DNA of 43,829 bases, from positions 1-43,829 of the forward strand of contig CALVCT010000056.1 of NCBI GenBank assembly GCA_944326055.1, in the 5' to 3' direction. Positions 3,121 through 11,910 of the stretch are shown here, piece after piece. Both the position numbers and the translations under genes were made by a program. The notes beneath the pieces were generated by a model, which worked only from the letters and a program-made list of their open reading frames with translations, did not search any database and was not told where the DNA came from. The first letter of the stretch is position 1, and the number at the start of each line of letters is the position of its first letter. This DNA is from an uncultured Erysipelotrichaceae bacterium. GTDB taxonomy: Bacteria > Bacillota_I > Bacilli_A > Erysipelotrichales > Erysipelotrichaceae.

Positions 3121-4506
3121 ATGAGTGAAAGATATGACGTTGTGATCGTTGGTGGTGGTATCGGTGGTCTTATGTGCGCTTATGGACTTAGTGAGTCAGA
3201 TCCTAAGCTCAGAGTACTACTATTGGAGAGGGGACGCGATATCGATAAGCGTATCTGTCCTATCGTCTCTAAGAAGACTAAGACCTGTCTAAAGTGTGAC
3301 CCTTGTGCGATCATGGAAGGCATGGCTGGCGCAGGAGCTTTTAGTGATGGAAAATATATCATCTCAACAGAATACGGTGGTTGGCTACCAGATCTTTTCG
3401 ATAATGATCTTGTGATGCGATATATCCTTAAAGCAGATGAGATACTCATGAAATTTGGTGCTGATAAAGATGCTTATGAACCAAGTATCGCTTTAAAGAA
3501 AGAGTGTCTAAAGTATGACCTGCACATGCAGTCAGCGAAAGTCAAACACTTAGGTACGGATGCAAATTATCTGACGATGTCTAAACTTATAGAGCATCTC
3601 AAGAATAAAGTCGAGATAGTTACATCCGCTAAGATGACGGATGTCGATATCAAGACCAACACTGTGACATACATCAAAGATCACAAAGAAGAAAGCGTTC
3701 AAGCTTCATCTATTGTCCTAGCCTTAGGTAGAGCTGGAGCTAGCGACTTCAAAGCTTGGGCCAAGAAAAACGACTTAGCGCTCGTCAATAATCAAGTCGA
3801 TATCGGCGTGAGAGTCGAGTTGCCTTATGAGATATGGGAAGACTTTTCAAAAGTCATCTATGAGCCAAAGATAAAATATGCGACAAGAGGTTATCACGAT
3901 ACGGTCAGGATGTTTTGTTTTAATGAAAGAGGACAAGTTGTTACAGAGAATACCGATGGTATCCTTACTGTCAATGGCCACGCCTATAAAGATGAAACTA
4001 AGAAGTCGAAGAATTCAAATTTTGCGCTCCTTTCGACGACGAATTTTACTAGTCCTTTCAATGAACCTATCGAATACGCTAAGAGCGTTGCTTCTTTAGC
4101 TAATAAGATCAGTGGTGGTAGTGTCATCGTTCAACGACTTGGTGATCTGAGAAATGGCAAACGTACGGATGAGAAACGCCTTAAAGAATCTAGTGTCATA
4201 CCTACACTTGATGCTGTGCCTGGTGATCTATCACTATGTATGCCAAAAAGGCAGCTTGATAATATCATCGAGACTCTTGATGCACTATCACAAGTGGCAC
4301 CGGGTACTAATAACTATGACACATTACTTTATGGTGTCGAATGCAAGTATTATTCTGCACGTCCTGAAGCAACAGATTTTATGATCACTGGAACATCAGG
4401 TATCTATGCTTTAGGTGATGGTGCTGGGTTTACAAGATCATTATCACAAGCTGGCGCATCAGGGCTCATGGTCGCTAGTAAGATCGTCAAGGGCGTCATT
4501 CAGTGA
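3121..4506 (+). CDS. FAD-dependent dehydrogenase of COG2509 type
   Basis: The protein has 461 aa with an N-terminal Rossmann dinucleotide site VVIVGGGIGGLMCAYGL (residues 7-23) for FAD. A cysteine cluster follows at residues 46, 56, 59 and 62 (CLKCDPC), then GMAGAGAFSDGK (67-78), all characteristic of the COG2509 group. The C-terminal YALGDGAGFTRSLSQAGASGLMVA is the second FAD contact with the GD motif. The group is uncharacterised; the redox partner and substrate are unknown, and the Cys set may bind a cluster or metal. The SD is GAGG 8 nt before ATG. It converges on and overlaps the apbE 3' end by 11 nt. The neighbouring flavin locus makes a redox role plausible, but this is inference. Confidence 0.8.
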   Translation: MSERYDVVIVGGGIGGLMCAYGLSESDPKLRVLLLERGRDIDKRICPIVSKKTKTCLKCDPCAIMEGMAGAGAFSDGKYIISTEYGGWLPDLFDNDLVMRYILKADEILMKFGADKDAYEPSIALKKECLKYDLHMQSAKVKHLGTDANYLTMSKLIEHLKNKVEIVTSAKMTDVDIKTNTVTYIKDHKEESVQASSIVLALGRAGASDFKAWAKKNDLALVNNQVDIGVRVELPYEIWEDFSKVIYEPKIKYATRGYHDTVRMFCFNERGQVVTENTDGILTVNGHAYKDETKKSKNSNFALLSTTNFTSPFNEPIEYAKSVASLANKISGGSVIVQRLGDLRNGKRTDEKRLKESSVIPTLDAVPGDLSLCMPKRQLDNIIETLDALSQVAPGTNNYDTLLYGVECKYYSARPEATDFMITGTSGIYALGDGAGFTRSLSQAGASGLMVASKIVKGVIQ

Positions 4507-5608
4507 CAAGACTATCTCTAAAGTTCTCACTGCAGGTGATATATTCTTGAGTATCTGTCATCGGTGAGAGGATGCTTGTATCATCTAGCGGTTCTTCTGA
4601 GATCCAGACGACGATGATATCAAGATCATAAGCTTCATTGACTTTTTCGATCAGTTCAAGACCTTCTTCATAATCCAGAACAAAGAATGCTGTACTTAAA
4701 CAATCAGCTATGCCACTATCAGGGACAACGACTGTGACACTTGTATAATAAGTTGCAGGAAAGCTTGTCTCGGGGTCGATGATATGAGAGTAGCGCTGGC
4801 CATCATCAGCGAAATAATAATTTTGATAGTCGCCTGAGGTAACGACGGAGACTTCTTTTTGGTCAGGGATCACAGCGATATTGCCTGAGCCTCTTGGATC
4901 TGTGATACCAACGTTATAACCAGATCCATCAGGTTGTGTACCGATGATCCTTTGGTTACCACCGGCGTTGACAGCGCCATATTCAAGTCCAGCTTCTTCT
5001 AGTGCTTTGGCGATCTTTTCTGTCGCAAAACCTTTAGCTATGCCACCGACATCAAGTGAGACATTGGGATCAGTTATATAGACTGTGCTTGCTTCTTTAT
5101 CGATCTCGATATATTCAAAACCTTTATATTCTTTGACGGCATCTAACTCTTCGGTGCTTGGAATACTACCATATGCTCCATTTTGGTTCTTTATCTTGCC
5201 GGCATCACGATATTCATGCCAGATCTTGAGTGTCGCACCATCAGTTATATCGAAAGCGCCATCTGATATATCATGTATCTCTTCAGCGAGCTCGATCAGT
5301 TCGATCAGGGCTCCATCGACTTTTACAGGTTCTATGCCTGCCATGTCGTTGACGGTCTTGATATTGTTTAGGCCGTCATAGTTGTTATAGATGTCAAAGA
5401 GATCATTGTAATATGAGAACATCTCATTCATCGATTCATAGTAGGCATTAAATTCTTCCTCGCTTTGTACATAAGCATTTAGCTGACACATCGTATCAAA
5501 GCCACAATCATAGTTTACTTTCCTAATGAGCTCATATTCAGGCTCTTTAGCACAACCACTATATAGTAAAAAGATCATTACTACGATCATCATCTTCATT
5601 ATCTTCAT
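4496..5608 (-). CDS. apbE: FAD:protein FMN transferase (ApbE), lipoprotein
   Basis: The start at 5608 is chosen over 5632, because GAGGT lies 6 nt before it and no SD precedes the upstream ATG; this gives 370 aa. A signal peptide ends in the lipobox LLYSGC, so the enzyme is anchored on the outer face. Family motifs seen are SLDVGGIAKGFATEK, VNAGGNQRI, SGDYQNYYF, YSHIIDPETSFP and a terminal DCLSTAFFVL. ApbE transfers FMN from FAD to Thr/Ser in the SGAT motif of exported proteins. Four such motifs lie in the divergent rnfD and rnfG genes, making these its obvious substrates. Its promoter region is shared with rnfC and contains a Rex-like palindrome. Confidence 0.93.
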   Translation of the reverse strand: MKIMKMMIVVMIFLLYSGCAKEPEYELIRKVNYDCGFDTMCQLNAYVQSEEEFNAYYESMNEMFSYYNDLFDIYNNYDGLNNIKTVNDMAGIEPVKVDGALIELIELAEEIHDISDGAFDITDGATLKIWHEYRDAGKIKNQNGAYGSIPSTEELDAVKEYKGFEYIEIDKEASTVYITDPNVSLDVGGIAKGFATEKIAKALEEAGLEYGAVNAGGNQRIIGTQPDGSGYNVGITDPRGSGNIAVIPDQKEVSVVTSGDYQNYYFADDGQRYSHIIDPETSFPATYYTSVTVVVPDSGIADCLSTAFFVLDYEEGLELIEKVNEAYDLDIIVVWISEEPLDDTSILSPMTDTQEYITCSENFRDSLVTE

Positions 5609-5632
5609 AATTACCTCGCTTATCTTCTTCAT

Positions 5633-5694: not shown

Positions 5695-6981
5695 ATGTCA
5701 TTTTTGATCGGACCAATGCAGAAACATCTGAATGGTCACAAAGAATTGACAGCACACAACGAGATCTTACATGTTGCTCCACAAGCTAAAGTATATATAC
5801 CTTTAGCGATGGGCAATGCGAAGATCGACGTGCTAGTCAAAGAAGGCGATCTAGTGAAAGTCGGTACGCAAGTAGCGGCGCGCAATGATCACTTCTATGT
5901 GCCTATCTTTGCATCGGTCTCTGGAAAGGTCCTCGGTATCGAAAAGAGGATGGGTCAGAATTTAAGGCCAACAGATCACCTGGTGATCGAAAGTGATGGC
6001 AATATGGAGAAAGCAGAAGGCTTATCTACTTTGAGTAATGATGCGGATAGTGAAGCTATCATCGCATTCATGAAAGAGAAGGGATTGGTAGGCTGTGGTG
6101 GTGCTGGCTTCCCAACATATGTCAAATATCAGACAGACAAATGTGAGACGCTTATCATCAACGCTGTAGAATGTGAACCATATATCACTGCCGATGCACA
6201 GACGATCGAAAGACACAAAGACGATCTACGTCGTGGTGTCTTAGCTATGTTCAAAGCATCGAAAGCTAAAAAGTGTCTCATTGGTATCAAAGAGACGAAA
6301 AAGGAATTGATACCACAATTAGTCGAATTGTTCAAAGATCAAAGCGATGTCACAGTTACACCAGTAAAAGATGTTTATCCGATGGGTTGGGAAAGGACTT
6401 TACTTTATACATTAGTCCACAAACGTTATGACAAACTACCTATCGAAGTCGGATGTATCGTCTCTAATGCAACGACGGCTGTCATGCTGGGTATCGCGAT
6501 GGAGACAGGTATGCCTATCGTTGAGAAGGTCGTTACAGTATCTGGTGATGCTGTTAAAGATCCACACAATGTCATTTGTCCTGTTGGTACACCATTCAGT
6601 GAGCTCGTCAAGACTTGTGGTGGTTATACTACAGAAGTCGTCGATCTTATCGCTGGTGGTCCAATGATGGGTAGTGCTGTCACGAAGGATGAAGTATGTG
6701 TCGGACTTGCTAGTAACGCCGTTACTGTCCTTGAGCATCATGATGTGAAAGAGATAGCTTGTTTACGTTGTGGCAAATGTATCGATCACTGTCCATCTGG
6801 CCTTGAACCTGTCAATATCAATAACGCATTCAAAGCTAATGATATCGATCGTTTGGAGAAACTACGTCCAATGGATTGTATCGAATGTGGTATGTGTTCT
6901 TATATTTGTCCATCTAAGATCGCTGTCACAGAAGGCATCAGAAGAGCTAAGAGAGCTATGGCTCTTAGAGTGAAGAGATAA
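5695..6981 (+). CDS. rnfC: Rnf complex subunit C (NADH-binding side)
   Basis: The protein has 428 aa, starting after SD AAGGAGG. The N-terminal barrel-like region is followed by the Gly-rich GLVGCGGAGFPTYVKY (about residues 131-146), which resembles the NuoF-like NADH/FMN fold. Two [4Fe-4S] motifs come next: CLRCGKCIDHCP near 356-367 and CIECGMCSYICP near 395-406. RnfC is the peripheral cytoplasmic subunit that exchanges electrons with NAD(H). The length is typical for Bacillota. It is the first gene of a seven-gene operon, with rnfD 13 nt downstream. Nothing in it appears damaged. Confidence 0.95.
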   Translation: MSFLIGPMQKHLNGHKELTAHNEILHVAPQAKVYIPLAMGNAKIDVLVKEGDLVKVGTQVAARNDHFYVPIFASVSGKVLGIEKRMGQNLRPTDHLVIESDGNMEKAEGLSTLSNDADSEAIIAFMKEKGLVGCGGAGFPTYVKYQTDKCETLIINAVECEPYITADAQTIERHKDDLRRGVLAMFKASKAKKCLIGIKETKKELIPQLVELFKDQSDVTVTPVKDVYPMGWERTLLYTLVHKRYDKLPIEVGCIVSNATTAVMLGIAMETGMPIVEKVVTVSGDAVKDPHNVICPVGTPFSELVKTCGGYTTEVVDLIAGGPMMGSAVTKDEVCVGLASNAVTVLEHHDVKEIACLRCGKCIDHCPSGLEPVNINNAFKANDIDRLEKLRPMDCIECGMCSYICPSKIAVTEGIRRAKRAMALRVKR

Positions 6982-6994
6982 GGGGGTAAATAAG

Positions 6995-8848
6995 ATGGAA
7001 TTCAAATTTCAAGCGGCGCCACATTATCGCCAAAAATTATCTACCCAAAGGATCATGTGGGATCTGACTCTTGGTCTATTAGTCGTCTATGCCTTTGGTC
7101 TATACAACGCCTATACACTTGGCAGTGCTTATCTGACAAATGCGATCGTCCTTATGGTCACATCTGTTTTAGTTGCACTTATCACTGAAGCAGTATGGGC
7201 TATATGCACAAAAAAGAAAGTCGTGAACTATCTACTCAGCTCATTTGGTTGGATCACAGCCATCATCTTAGTCTTGATGGTCCCTGTCAATACAGAGCCA
7301 TATGCGATAGCTGTAGCTACTTTCTTATGTATTTTCTTTGGTAAGCTCGTCTTTGGCGGTTTCGGTCAAAATATCTTCAATCCAGCTGCTGTTGGTAGAG
7401 CTATCATCTTTGCATCGTTCGCTGGTAGTATCAGTGCTGATCTAGTGACAGCTGCAACACCAACAACGACGATGAGCAGTGCTGGCTGGTTACTGAGCAC
7501 TGAAGCGTTCAATACTTTCTTAAGTGATTTTGGCGGGATCGGTGGCCTTTTCCTTGGTACTTATAGTGGTGCATTAGGTGAAACATCAGATCTCATCATC
7601 TTATTGGTAGGTATCTACCTTGTCTTAAGAGAAGTCATCGATTGGCGTATCCCAGTAACTTATGTCGGTGTCATCTTTGTCAGTACATTATGTATCGGCT
7701 TCAGTAATGGTCTAGGCCTTGATTATGCACTGTTCAGTATCTTTACTGGTGGTGTCATGTTTGGTGCTGTATTCATGTTGACAGATCCTGTCACGAGCCC
7801 GAATACACGAGCTGGTAAGATCGTTTATGCGGCTTTAGCTGCTTTCTTTACTGTCCTTATCAGATATTGTGCTAACTATCCAGAAGGTGTCTTGTTTTCG
7901 ATCTTACTTGTCAATATCTTGACGCCAGTCATCGATAAAGCCTTTGATGGAAAGCAAGTCTTACGCGAAAAGAAGAACGTCACGATCGTCGCTACTTCGA
8001 TCATCGTTGCGTGTGTAGCTATCTACGCATTAGGTTTTACACTTACGAAGTCCGATACTTATCGCAGTATCAATGTTCCAGATGGTCAGACCGTTGCTTT
8101 AGCTGATGATTATAGTGATTATGCAGCTGAACTTGTTTCACAAGATGGTGATACGTATGTCATCTCTGTTAGAGGCTTTGGTCTCATCAATCCTGGTGAT
8201 ATCGCATCACACACTGGACATTCATATTCAAGAAATGAGATCACAGTCACAGTCGATCCTGAGACGAAGACAGTCATAGATATCGAATTCACGACCTTTG
8301 GTGATACACCAGGTTATGGTGATGTCTGCTTAGAAGATACGTTCATGAACCAATTCATCGGCCTTGGTGAAGATGGTGAAGTCAATTGTGTCACTGGTGC
8401 GACATATACGTCAGAATCAGTAGTTGCTGCTGTCAAGCTGGCACTCAATGGCGGTACGTCATATGTCAAAGGTGGCGAAGTAGCCTTGAATAGTGATTTC
8501 AGTGATTATTCAGCTGAAGTTACAGACAATGGTGATGGTACATATCATGTCACAGTCAGAGGTTTCGGTCTCATCAATCCTGGTGCCATCGCATCACATA
8601 CTGGACATTCATATTCAAGAAACGAATTCGATATCACAGTGAACGAAGATGGTAGTGTTGCAAGTGTCGTCTTCAGTACATTTGGTGATACACCGGGCTA
8701 TGGTGATAAATGTCAGGATCAAGGTTATCTCGATTCTTATGTCGGTAAGACACTAGATGATAATGTCGACCTTGTATCGACAGCGACATGGACAGCGAAT
8801 TCTGTTGCTGCTGCAGTAAATGCGGCATTGAGTGCTGCGGCACAGTAA
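6995..8848 (+). CDS. rnfD: Rnf complex subunit D fused to two extra FMN-binding domains
   Basis: The first 350 residues are a normal multi-pass RnfD, with NIFNPAAVGRA, MLTDPVTSPNTRAGK and its own flavinylation region TAATP (Thr155) on an outer loop. Canonical RnfD ends at about 300-350 aa, but this protein has 617. After the last helix come two homologous extracytoplasmic FMN_bind domains. The first (about 355-495) contains CVTGATYTS with Thr470. The second (about 497-617) contains VSTATWTA with Thr598, a weaker motif. The domains share RGFGLINPG, IASHTGHSYSRNE and FGDTPGYGD and are a tandem duplication. Up to three covalent FMN per RnfD are therefore possible. The SD AAGGGGG before ATG is good. 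Confidence 0.93.
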   Translation: MEFKFQAAPHYRQKLSTQRIMWDLTLGLLVVYAFGLYNAYTLGSAYLTNAIVLMVTSVLVALITEAVWAICTKKKVVNYLLSSFGWITAIILVLMVPVNTEPYAIAVATFLCIFFGKLVFGGFGQNIFNPAAVGRAIIFASFAGSISADLVTAATPTTTMSSAGWLLSTEAFNTFLSDFGGIGGLFLGTYSGALGETSDLIILLVGIYLVLREVIDWRIPVTYVGVIFVSTLCIGFSNGLGLDYALFSIFTGGVMFGAVFMLTDPVTSPNTRAGKIVYAALAAFFTVLIRYCANYPEGVLFSILLVNILTPVIDKAFDGKQVLREKKNVTIVATSIIVACVAIYALGFTLTKSDTYRSINVPDGQTVALADDYSDYAAELVSQDGDTYVISVRGFGLINPGDIASHTGHSYSRNEITVTVDPETKTVIDIEFTTFGDTPGYGDVCLEDTFMNQFIGLGEDGEVNCVTGATYTSESVVAAVKLALNGGTSYVKGGEVALNSDFSDYSAEVTDNGDGTYHVTVRGFGLINPGAIASHTGHSYSRNEFDITVNEDGSVASVVFSTFGDTPGYGDKCQDQGYLDSYVGKTLDDNVDLVSTATWTANSVAAAVNAALSAAAQ

Positions 8849-8860
8849 GGGGGTTAAGAT

Positions 8861-9382
8861 ATGAAGAAAGCTCTACAATTAGTTCTCTTTCTAGGGATCA
8901 TCTCTTTGATCTCCGGCGTGGCTGTCGGTTCTGTCAACAGTATCACAGAACCTATCATCCAAGATAATCTCTTAGCTAGTGAGATCACGAATCTTGAAGC
9001 TATGTATCCAGGTGCTGAGTTCACAGCTCTAGAAGTTACAGATGATTCAGGTTACATCCAAGGTGCATATGAAGTCGTTGGTCAAGGTTATGTCATCAAA
9101 GTCCAAACGACAGGTTACAATACTTCTACGCCGATCATCGCTCTTGTCGGTTTCGATAGTGAGGGTACTATCACTGGTCTTATGGCTATCCAACAGCAAG
9201 AAACAGATGGTTTCGGTACGCGAGTCTTTGAAGACGAACAAGTTCAATCGATGTATGTTGGAAAAGGACTCAGTGATACTGTAGACTTGCTCAGTGGAGC
9301 GACAGTCACTAGTACAGCTGTGCAAAGTGCTATCAGTGCTGCACAAGTCGTTGTCAGTAGTCTAATAGGTCTAATAGGTTAA
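8861..9382 (+). CDS. rnfG: Rnf complex subunit G (covalent FMN protein)
   Basis: The protein has 173 aa. An N-terminal membrane helix (about residues 5-27) is followed by an extracytoplasmic FMN_bind domain. It contains GYNTSTPIIALVGFD, QQETDGFG and the flavinylation motif LLSGATVTSTAV with acceptor Thr148. RnfG carries electrons between RnfD and the rest of the complex through covalently attached FMN. The length is typical. An SD (AAGGGGG) precedes ATG. It is the best canonical SGAT substrate for the adjacent apbE product. Confidence 0.96.
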   Translation: MKKALQLVLFLGIISLISGVAVGSVNSITEPIIQDNLLASEITNLEAMYPGAEFTALEVTDDSGYIQGAYEVVGQGYVIKVQTTGYNTSTPIIALVGFDSEGTITGLMAIQQQETDGFGTRVFEDEQVQSMYVGKGLSDTVDLLSGATVTSTAVQSAISAAQVVVSSLIGLIG

Positions 9383-9394
9383 GGGGGTCAAGAT

Positions 9395-10033
9395 ATGTGG
9401 AACAACTTTAAAAACGGTTTTATCAAAGAGAACCCTGTCTTCGGACTATATCTAGGAATGTGTTCATCCTTAGCTATATCGACGTCATTAAATAATGCGA
9501 TCGGTATGGGTGCTTGTGTCACATTAGTCCTTATCGCTTCAAACGTCATCGTATCAGCGATCAGAAAGATCACACCAGATGAGATACGTATTCCAGTCTA
9601 TATCGTCGTCATCGCGTCACTTGTCACAGTCGTTGAGATGGTCGTCCATGCTTTTATGCCAGAGCTATATACTTCGCTCGGTGTCTTCTTAGGACTGATC
9701 GTCGTCAACTGCATCATCTTAGGACGTGCTGAAGCCTTTGCTTCTAAGAATGGTATCGTCGCAAGTGCTGTTGATGGTCTAGGTATGGGACTTGGTTATA
9801 CGTTTGCTCTACTTCTCATCTCTATCACACGTGAGTTCTTATCTACTGCTGGACTTCACTTCTATAATCCATTCAACAGCGAACAATTGCTCTTTGGATT
9901 TACGATCGAAGCTCTAGAACCTTATACGATCTCACTTTTCTCAGCGTCAGTCGGTGCATTCTTGACTTTCGCTTGTTTCGCTGCGATCTTTGCGATATTG
10001 CGCAATCGTTCAAGTAAGAAGGAGGCTAAGTGA
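9395..10033 (+). CDS. rnfE: Rnf complex subunit E
   Basis: The protein has 212 aa with six predicted membrane helices. Family segments seen are the N-terminal NGFIKENPVFGLYLGMCSSL, then GMGACVTLVLIASN, IVVNCIILGRAEAFA and DGLGMGLGYTFALL. The Cys residues of the two half-sites (NC in VVNC and the CSS region) are those that in NqrD/RnfE help to hold the intramembrane [2Fe-2S] cluster with RnfA. An SD (AAGGGGG) is 7 nt upstream. The last codons overlap the proposed GTG of rnfA, as expected for a tightly coupled pair. Confidence 0.95.
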   Translation: MWNNFKNGFIKENPVFGLYLGMCSSLAISTSLNNAIGMGACVTLVLIASNVIVSAIRKITPDEIRIPVYIVVIASLVTVVEMVVHAFMPELYTSLGVFLGLIVVNCIILGRAEAFASKNGIVASAVDGLGMGLGYTFALLLISITREFLSTAGLHFYNPFNSEQLLFGFTIEALEPYTISLFSASVGAFLTFACFAAIFAILRNRSSKKEAK

Positions 10034-10035
10034 TC

Positions 10036-10611
10036 ATGATGGAACTGTTTGCTTTGGCGTTATCTGCCGTCTTGATAAATAATGTCGTCCTATCGAAGTT
10101 CTTAGGACTCTGTCCTTTCTTAGGTGTCTCTAAGTCATCAAAGAATGCGATCGGTATGGGTCTGGCTGTCATCTTTGTCATCTTTGGCGCTTCACTCATC
10201 ACTTATGCTCTGTATCATCTTGTCTTAGTACCAGCTGAGATCGAGTATATGCAACTCATCACTTTCATCTTAGTTATTGCGACTTTTGTCCAATTCATAG
10301 AGATGTTCATTAAGAAGTATAGTCCTGCACTCTATAAGTCACTCGGTATCTATCTACCACTTATCACGACTAACTGTGTCGTTCTATATGTGGCGCAAGA
10401 TAATATCACACAAAACTATGATCTTATCGAGACGATCGTTAATTCGATCGCAGTGCCAGCAGGCTTTATGTTAGTGTTGTACCTCTTCTCTTGTCTTAGA
10501 GAGAGACTAGACAGCGCTGATACTCCAAAAGCATGGAAAGGTAATCCTATCGCTTTAGTCGTAGCTGCACTCATGGCTTTAGCGTTTAGTGCCTTTGCAG
10601 GTATCGTTTGA
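10036..10611 (+). CDS. rnfA: Rnf complex subunit A
   Basis: The protein has about 191 aa and six membrane helices, with the hallmarks INNVVLSKFLGLCPFLGVS and LPLITTNCVVLYVA. Its two Cys-containing loops pair with those of RnfE to bind the membrane [2Fe-2S] cluster. Three starts are possible. GTG at 10030 overlaps the rnfE stop and lies 4 nt after the SD AAGGAGG. ATG at 10036 (10 nt) is chosen because family proteins begin MELF or close to it. ATG at 10039 is also possible. The stop overlaps the next start as TGATG. Confidence 0.95.
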   Translation: MMELFALALSAVLINNVVLSKFLGLCPFLGVSKSSKNAIGMGLAVIFVIFGASLITYALYHLVLVPAEIEYMQLITFILVIATFVQFIEMFIKKYSPALYKSLGIYLPLITTNCVVLYVAQDNITQNYDLIETIVNSIAVPAGFMLVLYLFSCLRERLDSADTPKAWKGNPIALVVAALMALAFSAFAGIV

Positions 10612-10799
10612 TGAATATACTATATGGGATGTTGTTTATCATTGCTTTAGGTAGTGTCTATGTCCTTGGTTATTACTTTAACCACAAGACACCAAAACCT
10701 AAAGGTTGTGAAAACATGACAGCAGCATGTGAAGGTTGTCATGTGACAAGTTGCGACAACAACCCGCAAAATGAATACAAGGAGAAAGAAAATGTTTAA
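10611..10799 (+). CDS. Small Cys-rich single-helix membrane protein inside the rnf operon
   Basis: The protein has 62 aa, with ATG overlapping the rnfA stop (TGATG). One N-terminal membrane helix (about residues 3-23) is followed by a charged stretch. Four cysteines follow in a CX6CX2CX4C arrangement (Cys33, 40, 43, 48) plus a His at 44, then a polar tail. The layout resembles FeoB-associated Cys-rich membrane proteins, but here it sits between rnfA and rnfB, and its 3' end overlaps the rnfB start. By position it could bind an Fe-S cluster or metal and serve the Rnf complex, perhaps replacing something lost from RnfB. That is inference; no known function is recognised. Confidence 0.7.
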   Translation: MNILYGMLFIIALGSVYVLGYYFNHKTPKPKGCENMTAACEGCHVTSCDNNPQNEYKEKENV

Positions 10800-11100
10800 T
10801 GTCATCTTGGTAATGCTCGTATTAGGCTGCGTCCTTGGGGCGATCTTATATATCGCATCAGTAGCTTTCCATGTCGAAGTGGATGAGCGTGAAGAGAAAG
10901 TCGCAGAGATGCTTCCAGGATATAACTGTGGATCTTGTGGATATCCAGGCTGCAGTGGTCTAGCTAAAGCACTCATAAGTGGCGAGACAGATACTGTCAA
11001 TTGCCGTCCATGTAAGCCAGATCAAAGAGCAGCTATCGTAGAATATATCAATACGACACCAGGTCCAAACGGTGAGAAGCTCACTGTAAAATCGATCTAA
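10792..11100 (+). CDS. rnfB: Truncated Rnf complex subunit B, single [4Fe-4S] domain
   Basis: The start at 10792 follows SD AAGGAG at 8 nt; the product is 102 aa. It has the N-terminal membrane helix (about 4-26) and the Fe-S domain with NCGSCGYPGCSGLAKAL (Cys46, 49, 54) and Cys71 (Cys74 also present). It then stops at KLTVKSI. Ordinary RnfB continues with one or more 2[4Fe-4S] ferredoxin domains and is about 190-440 aa. A strong terminator 5 nt after the stop shows there is no downstream remainder, and no CxxCxxC ferredoxin motif occurs nearby in any frame. The ferredoxin-interacting clusters are therefore missing from this subunit. The frame has no sign of decay, so the short form looks functional. 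Confidence 0.9.
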   Translation: MFNVILVMLVLGCVLGAILYIASVAFHVEVDEREEKVAEMLPGYNCGSCGYPGCSGLAKALISGETDTVNCRPCKPDQRAAIVEYINTTPGPNGEKLTVKSI

Positions 11101-11105
11101 GTCAT

Positions 11106-11134
11106 AAGAGCCCAAAAAAATGGGCTCTTTTTTT
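11106..11134 (+). terminator. Terminator of the rnf operon
   Basis: A 9-bp stem AAGAGCCCA / TGGGCTCTT with an A-loop, followed by a run of Ts. It is one of the strongest intrinsic terminators in the window and fixes the 3' end of rnfB. Confidence 0.93.
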
Positions 11135-11184: not shown

Positions 11185-11910
11185 ATGAAGAAAAGATATC
11201 TTTTGATGATGTTCGGTGCTCTTTTCATCCTTACCATAACAGTGCTAGTGATCTTTCTTATGATGCCAAGATACATCGAAGTTCCTATTGCGACCCATAC
11301 GATAAGGCCTTGGGAAAAGATCGAAAGTGAAGACATCAGCTATATAAGAGTCGAAGAGACTAAGCTAGCAGACAATGTACTAAAAGAAAGTGAGGAGATC
11401 TTAGATAGATATGTCGTAGCTAAGACGACGATCTATCCTAATTCTTATTTTTATGAGGGCATGTTAGAGGATGAAGAAGGTATGAAAGATGGTGCTTATC
11501 GCTATCTAGCAGGTGATGAAGTAGCTTATGATCTTGATGTAGAGATGATCAAGATCAATAAGACGGCGATAACTGATGGTATGAATATCGATCTATATCT
11601 GACATTAAAGATCGGACAAGAGATCAAAAGCGATATCTTGTTTGAAAACGCCTTAGTTTTGGCCAAGTATGATGAAGAAGGTAAAGAAGTGAGGACTAGT
11701 GATCAAAAGGTCAAGACTTTTACGATACGTATCAAAAGAAAGGATGTCAATTATCTCAATAAAGCTCTGGCTTTAGGCGAGATATCGGCTATTATATCCA
11801 GTGAGGCCTATAGTGATCTTGATGCATCACTTGTGAATGAGAGTAAAGTATTGGAATATCTTGAAGATGAAGATCATATCGATATCACTGATCCTAGTAT
11901 TACTGACTAG
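11185..11910 (+). CDS. SAF-domain membrane-anchored protein
   Basis: The protein has 241 aa with SD AAGGAGG before ATG. A single N-terminal membrane helix (about residues 5-27) is followed by YIEVPIATHTIRPWEKIESEDISYIRVEE. This is the SAF beta-clip pattern, in which bases like PxxxIxxGxxIxxxDI recur in CpaB/RcpC and FlgA-type proteins. VVAKTTIYPNSYFYEGML continues that fold. A C-terminal acidic part lacks a recognised domain. SAF proteins with this layout often help pilus or surface-structure assembly, but no other pilus gene is nearby, so the role is open. The 3' end overlaps the next lipoprotein gene by 44 nt. Confidence 0.65.
   Translation: MKKRYLLMMFGALFILTITVLVIFLMMPRYIEVPIATHTIRPWEKIESEDISYIRVEETKLADNVLKESEEILDRYVVAKTTIYPNSYFYEGMLEDEEGMKDGAYRYLAGDEVAYDLDVEMIKINKTAITDGMNIDLYLTLKIGQEIKSDILFENALVLAKYDEEGKEVRTSDQKVKTFTIRIKRKDVNYLNKALALGEISAIISSEAYSDLDASLVNESKVLEYLEDEDHIDITDPSITD

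Follow-up and report, generated by a model that had tools for sequence, protein, structure and literature searches.

A short RnfB with a single predicted [4Fe-4S] domain in the Rnf operon of an uncultured Erysipelotrichaceae bacterium

The clostridial and A. woodii Rnf complexes (PDB 7zc6 and 9eri) have six subunits, and their RnfB proteins, 260-330 amino acids (AAs) long, carry a transmembrane helix, a first [4Fe-4S] domain called FdI or B8, and a C-terminal part with extra clusters that is the proposed ferredoxin docking site (PMC9588780, PMC11889175). FdI of C. tetanomorphum, for which a CFeSP 4Fe-4S-type fold is reported, is highly mobile, with the membrane anchor on one side and the larger FdII+III part on the other; its proposed role is to carry electrons to RnfA/E (PMC9588780). 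In A. woodii, the B8 domain (RnfB residues 30-100) inserts between RnfA and RnfE, and mutations made to test this proposed route targeted its cluster cysteines among other sites (PMC11889175).

The RnfB of Thermotoga maritima has a mass of 10.56 kDa and one predicted [4Fe-4S] cluster, a cluster number that its authors say remains to be established (PMC7414866); the C. tetanomorphum authors describe this shortened protein as consisting of FdI only (PMC9588780). In that work C. pasteurianum ferredoxin served T. maritima membranes as donor for NAD+ reduction, and the Rnf complex, purified as a ferredoxin:NAD+ oxidoreductase, transported Na+ (PMC7414866). The Na+-NQR shares with the Rnf described here its membrane core and a small mobile Fe-S domain on a membrane anchor, which feeds the NqrD/E cluster; unlike it, NQR has NqrF (FAD, [2Fe-2S]) in place of RnfB, and its NqrA is without cofactors.

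The operon and its RnfB

The window is the whole stretch of DNA that was analysed, 43,829 nucleotides of contig CALVCT010000056.1 (assembly GCA_944326055.1). All six Rnf subunits, RnfABCDGE, are encoded in one complete rnfCDGEAB operon of which rnfB is the last gene, and apbE diverges from it. The features are:

4496-5632, minus strand: ApbE-family FMN transferase, divergent from the operon (PF02424)
5695-6981, plus strand: RnfC, with RnfC_N, Complex1_51K (NADH/FMN) and SLBB domains and two C-terminal [4Fe-4S] clusters (Pfam, TIGR01945)
6995-8848, plus strand: RnfD, with an added membrane helix (residues 325-347) and two FMN_bind domains fused to it (PF03116 and two PF04205 stretches, AlphaFold, Foldseek)
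8240-8449, plus strand: first RnfD FMN_bind domain, motif TGATYT
8627-8833, plus strand: second RnfD FMN_bind domain, motif STATWT, without the usual Gly
8861-9382, plus strand: RnfG, one membrane helix and FMN_bind, flavinylation motif SGATVT (PF04205, PDB 7zc6_G)
9395-10033, plus strand: RnfE, two conserved cysteines (GMCSSLA, VVNCIILG; TIGR01948, 7zc6_E alignment)
10036-10611, plus strand: RnfA, two conserved cysteines of the membrane [2Fe-2S] cluster (GLCPFLG, TTNCVVL; TIGR01943, A. woodii 9eri_A alignment)
10611-10799, plus strand: C62, a 62-AA Cys-rich membrane protein (C-x6-C-x2-C-x4-C) between rnfA and rnfB, of a class-wide family by profile search
10792-11100, plus strand: short RnfB, with an N-terminal membrane helix, an FdI/B8-type [4Fe-4S] domain and a conserved C-terminal tail (PF04060, PDB alignment, AlphaFold)
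11106-11129, plus strand: terminator-like stem-loop, then a T run, 5 nt past the rnfB stop

The gene order, an RnfB of about 10.5 kDa and its one predicted [4Fe-4S] cluster are those of T. maritima, compared here by published mass and description; unlike the window, T. maritima has no RnfD-FMN_bind fusion or Cys-rich protein mentioned in the consulted part of PMC7414866. Cofactor motifs are kept in RnfA, RnfE, RnfG and RnfC: the four cysteines of the RnfA/E membrane cluster are present in alignments to PDB chains, and RnfC has its NADH/FMN domain and two [4Fe-4S] clusters (PF01512, PF13375 and Fer4 families; alignment to 9eri_C). NCBIfam scores lie above the cut-off for RnfA (TIGR01943, 240 bits, cut-off 229), RnfE (TIGR01948, 215.3, cut-off 213.4) and RnfC (TIGR01945, 354, cut-off 246), and below it for RnfB (64.9, cut-off 68.7), RnfD (196.3, cut-off 207.05) and RnfG (49.5, cut-off 102); these last three count against the explanation that we favour below. 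NqrF does not take over the donor side here: the operon encodes no NqrF (FAD, [2Fe-2S]) and has RnfB in its place. Directly after the operon, at 11185-11910, the window encodes a CpaB/RcpC-like protein (SAF-type, Flp pilus assembly).

The rnfB frame runs on the plus strand from an ATG at 10792 to a stop that ends at 11100 and encodes 102 AAs. The protein has a single hydrophobic helix close to its N terminus, followed at residues 41-73 by the FeS domain with four cysteines (PF04060, 49.8 bits, cut-off 23), in accord with the sequence-only reading of this gene as a membrane helix plus a single [4Fe-4S] domain. Nothing else in Pfam matches the protein, Fer4 families included; only the N-terminal half of each of the NCBIfam rnfB and RsxB models is matched, and the alignment to PDB RnfB chains 7zc6, 8ahx and 9eri covers their first 74-95 residues. 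The AlphaFold model (mean pLDDT 91) has as its best Foldseek matches the N-terminal 4Fe-4S domain of the corrinoid iron-sulfur protein CFeSP (rmsd 1.3 over 50 columns; Foldseek E 0.04, probability 1.00). A mobile FdI/B8 [4Fe-4S] domain on a membrane anchor, which marks an Rnf, is thus found in the window RnfB, and the C-terminal poly-ferredoxin domain of the long-RnfB (Clostridia-type) Rnf is not (102 AAs, no Fer4 match). Judged by its sequence, RnfB here keeps the anchor and the mobile domain and is without only the ferredoxin-docking poly-cluster part; the earlier view that the missing part receives electrons from ferredoxin in the known complex agrees with the docking site proposed for it (PMC9588780, PMC11889175).

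The terminator that had been read 5 nt past the rnfB stop is present as a consensus match only, in a region where terminator-like sites are about as frequent as the shuffle mean. No ferredoxin motif was found 3' of rnfB, as had also been noted. The only PF04060 match in the genome (81 contigs, 98.54% complete) is the window rnfB, and this search found no second RnfB, and hence no paralogue with ferredoxin domains of the kind that would have spoken against the earlier reading.

Short and long RnfB among relatives

Among the best 150 rnfB matches listed in the order (one best match per genome, frames measured from stop to stop), 133 frames are shorter than 150 codons, with a median of 108 and at least one (G078) ending at a contig edge; 15 frames have 250-300 codons and 2 are other proteins. 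In a sample drawn from the phylum, every listed match belongs to the window's class; the matches make up 30 loci in 27 genomes, 21 with a short RnfB and none with a long one; the others are seven NQR operons with NqrF and two loci with neither found. The idea that relatives have a full-length rnfB here and that this strain carries a deletion fails on these counts, the short form being the usual one. True NQR operons are thus present in other Bacilli of the sample, namely in other families of the same class (L110, L114, L119 and L122-L125, with an NqrF-like protein); of the genomes concerned, three (G353, G259, G288) carry another Rnf/Nqr set besides. L116 and L126 are Rnf loci in which the pattern used did not find an FeS-domain RnfB after rnfA.

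Ten columns, the four FeS-domain cysteines included, are invariant in 39 short RnfBs. Most Erysipelotrichaceae sequences keep the tail YLNxTPGPDGxxxxVK as far as the stop, and other families of the class have a related C-terminal tail. Because tail and end point are conserved in many relatives, the stop is not accidental. There is next to no chance that the short RnfB is a truncation, frameshift or assembly artefact of one strain, a notion to which nothing beyond the length lends weight and which is at odds with dozens of independent genomes in which the length is equal and the tail conserved, the lack of a downstream ferredoxin motif and the terminator-like stem directly after rnfB; the order- and class-wide surveys reject a local deletion or artefact. 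By these comparisons the 102-AA protein is the ordinary form in its class and a known kind of RnfB.

We compared 44 short-RnfB operons (84-145 AAs from the first possible start) with 25 long-RnfB operons (260-306 AAs), 14 of the latter from the window's order. In a tree of RnfA, RnfE and RnfC together the short-RnfB operons group apart from the long type (43 of them with support 0.996; only the placement of L012, at 0.12, is uncertain), and the order's long-RnfB operons lie among Clostridia sequences, a position that suggests their acquisition by transfer. The RnfC tail is CPSKI.VTE in the short type and CPAKR..TQ in the long type, as in the clostridial and A. woodii complexes. Of the claim that RnfB signals an altered Rnf type, the distinct subtype stands, on the tree, the RnfC tail, RnfD and the Cys-rich protein; the departure from the ordinary does not, as this form of RnfB is the ordinary one in its class. 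We found no literature that names RnfB together with Erysipelotrich-.

The RnfD extension and the Cys-rich protein

The clostridial and A. woodii RnfD, of about 310 AAs, has no extension, whereas in the window RnfD Foldseek relates the core of the AlphaFold model to RnfD/NqrB and the extension to RnfG/NqrC. The two tandem FMN_bind domains are 53% identical to each other, and the topology suggests that they face outside, as in RnfG; flavinylation of the second is doubtful because STATWT replaces the usual [S/T]GAT. FMN_bind domains occur on 33 of 42 short-type RnfD proteins versus 3 of 23 long-type ones. Since nine short-type proteins (L006 and L008, for example) have no such match, the extension is not tied to the short RnfB. 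In three long-RnfB operons of the window's family (L061, L065, L072) RnfD has about 525 AAs with an FMN_bind domain, and the best RnfG match is the same ORF, which suggests an RnfD-RnfG fusion. L032 and L033 are Rnf operons with an 84-AA RnfB and a 476-AA RnfD in which a separate rnfG was not found.

The frequency of FMN_bind on short-type RnfD, the adjoining apbE gene and the published proposal that a multi-flavinylated RnfG gives Rnf a second exit (PMC8238504) would all suit a complex that is mainly an electron exporter, driven by NADH or ferredoxin, in which the extracytoplasmic FMN domains of RnfG and of the RnfD extension pass electrons to an outside acceptor and the ferredoxin dock is dispensable. 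We consider this unlikely: FMN_bind is missing from RnfD in 9 of 42 short-type cases, the genome's FMN_bind matches all fall within the operon and so reveal no flavinylated terminal reductase, RnfC keeps its NAD and [4Fe-4S] domains, and direct transfer between RnfC and RnfB is judged unlikely in A. woodii, over >30 Å (PMC11889175).

The C62 ORF overlaps the rnfB start by 8 nt. Its family has an N-terminal helix followed by NxKTPxPxGCExLxxxCxGCxxxSC, with four cysteines that are invariant in 16 aligned proteins. By profile search, every short-type locus examined in the Erysipelotrichales has such a Cys-rich membrane protein of 56-70 AAs encoded between rnfA and rnfB, as do most short-type loci from the class's other families; no long-type locus has one. 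It is missing from Acholeplasmatales and from some further loci with a short RnfB (L013, L018-L022, L032, L033), and in distant members from other families only three cysteines remain (C-x2-C-x4-C). L116, mentioned above for its unlocated RnfB, does encode it. C62 reaches the cut-off of no Pfam or NCBIfam family; among the 16 Cys-rich members Pfam matches up to E 1 do not include NqrM, and three match the FeoB-associated PF12669 weakly (best E 0.0021), the window C62 not being one of them.

Could C62 be the separate protein that supplies the missing ferredoxin part, with a cluster beside RnfB that relays electrons from ferredoxin to FdI? Its presence in every examined Erysipelotrichales short-type locus and in no long-type locus, its four invariant cysteines, and the positive residues past the helix, which suggest a cytoplasmic Cys domain, are compatible with this. 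We nevertheless regard such a relay as highly improbable, as some short-RnfB lineages are without the protein, others keep three cysteines, which is poor for a [4Fe-4S] electron carrier, and there is no Fer4-type match. We see in the Cys-rich protein a candidate for maturing the RnfA/E cluster, which is a likelier role than that of a missing ferredoxin domain. In NQR, NqrM is a small membrane protein needed for the NqrD/E cluster (PMC12174285), and C62 is likened to it in function only; an Rnf counterpart of NqrM was not found in the literature searched.

Electron donor and coupling ion

The genome encodes a 2[4Fe-4S] ferredoxin (57 AAs in an 86-codon frame), an [FeFe]-hydrogenase and a PFOR-like protein (1172-codon frame, identified by reading). 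It also encodes EtfB, an EtfA carrying Fer4 and an FAD oxidase side by side, a cluster that we take to resemble the LctBCD lactate dehydrogenase. The eight Fer4_7 matches in the genome fall in seven genes (those for RnfC, PFOR, the hydrogenase, the small ferredoxin and EtfA, and two others), none of which is recognisable as the missing RnfB part. With one PF04060 match and no fitting Fer4_7 gene, both a second RnfB and an orphan RnfB ferredoxin part, such as the multi-cluster ferredoxin that had been suspected elsewhere in the genome, are rejected. The c subunit of the F-type ATP synthase (L131:1501-1689) contains the segments GIGQG and AVAET; Q..ET residues are, we assume, typical of Na+ sites, and they suggest an ATP synthase of the Na+ type.

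The sequence-only reading held that a separate protein or a different donor must replace the missing part of RnfB. Missing ferredoxin domains imply neither another donor nor a separate protein in their stead, because the FdI-only RnfB of T. maritima works with ferredoxin (PMC7414866). We think it quite probable that RnfB here is complete in a minimal form, with soluble ferredoxin reducing FdI directly, electrons passing on through Rnf to NAD+, and a cation being pumped. Sequence, domains, fold prediction, conservation and the presence of all partners are the basis for this in the present genome, and donor, path and ion coupling are taken from T. maritima and the solved structures. Reduced soluble ferredoxin would reduce the FdI cluster directly, as in T. 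maritima; the FdI domain would swing to RnfA/E and reduce the [2Fe-2S] cluster; electrons would then pass to the RnfG FMN, the RnfD flavins, RnfC and NAD+, following the solved structures. Cation export would be coupled to this flow, probably of Na+, as T. maritima and the structures indicate. Besides this ferredoxin-to-NAD+ path, electrons might also leave by way of the added FMN domains of RnfD.

Across a broad group of Bacilli, from the gut and from the environment, RnfB usually has the minimal FdI-only form known from T. maritima, and a large poly-cluster domain would therefore not be needed for ferredoxin docking. The less ordinary features of this group are the FMN_bind extension of RnfD and the Cys-rich protein, rather than the length of RnfB. 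A more tentative possibility is that the features are linked in a Bacilli subtype of Rnf, with an FdI-only RnfB, a Cys-rich protein dedicated to building or feeding the RnfA/E cluster, and a flavinylated RnfD as second exit outside the cell. The small Cys-rich protein may be a maturation factor of Rnf, in the role that NqrM has in NQR.
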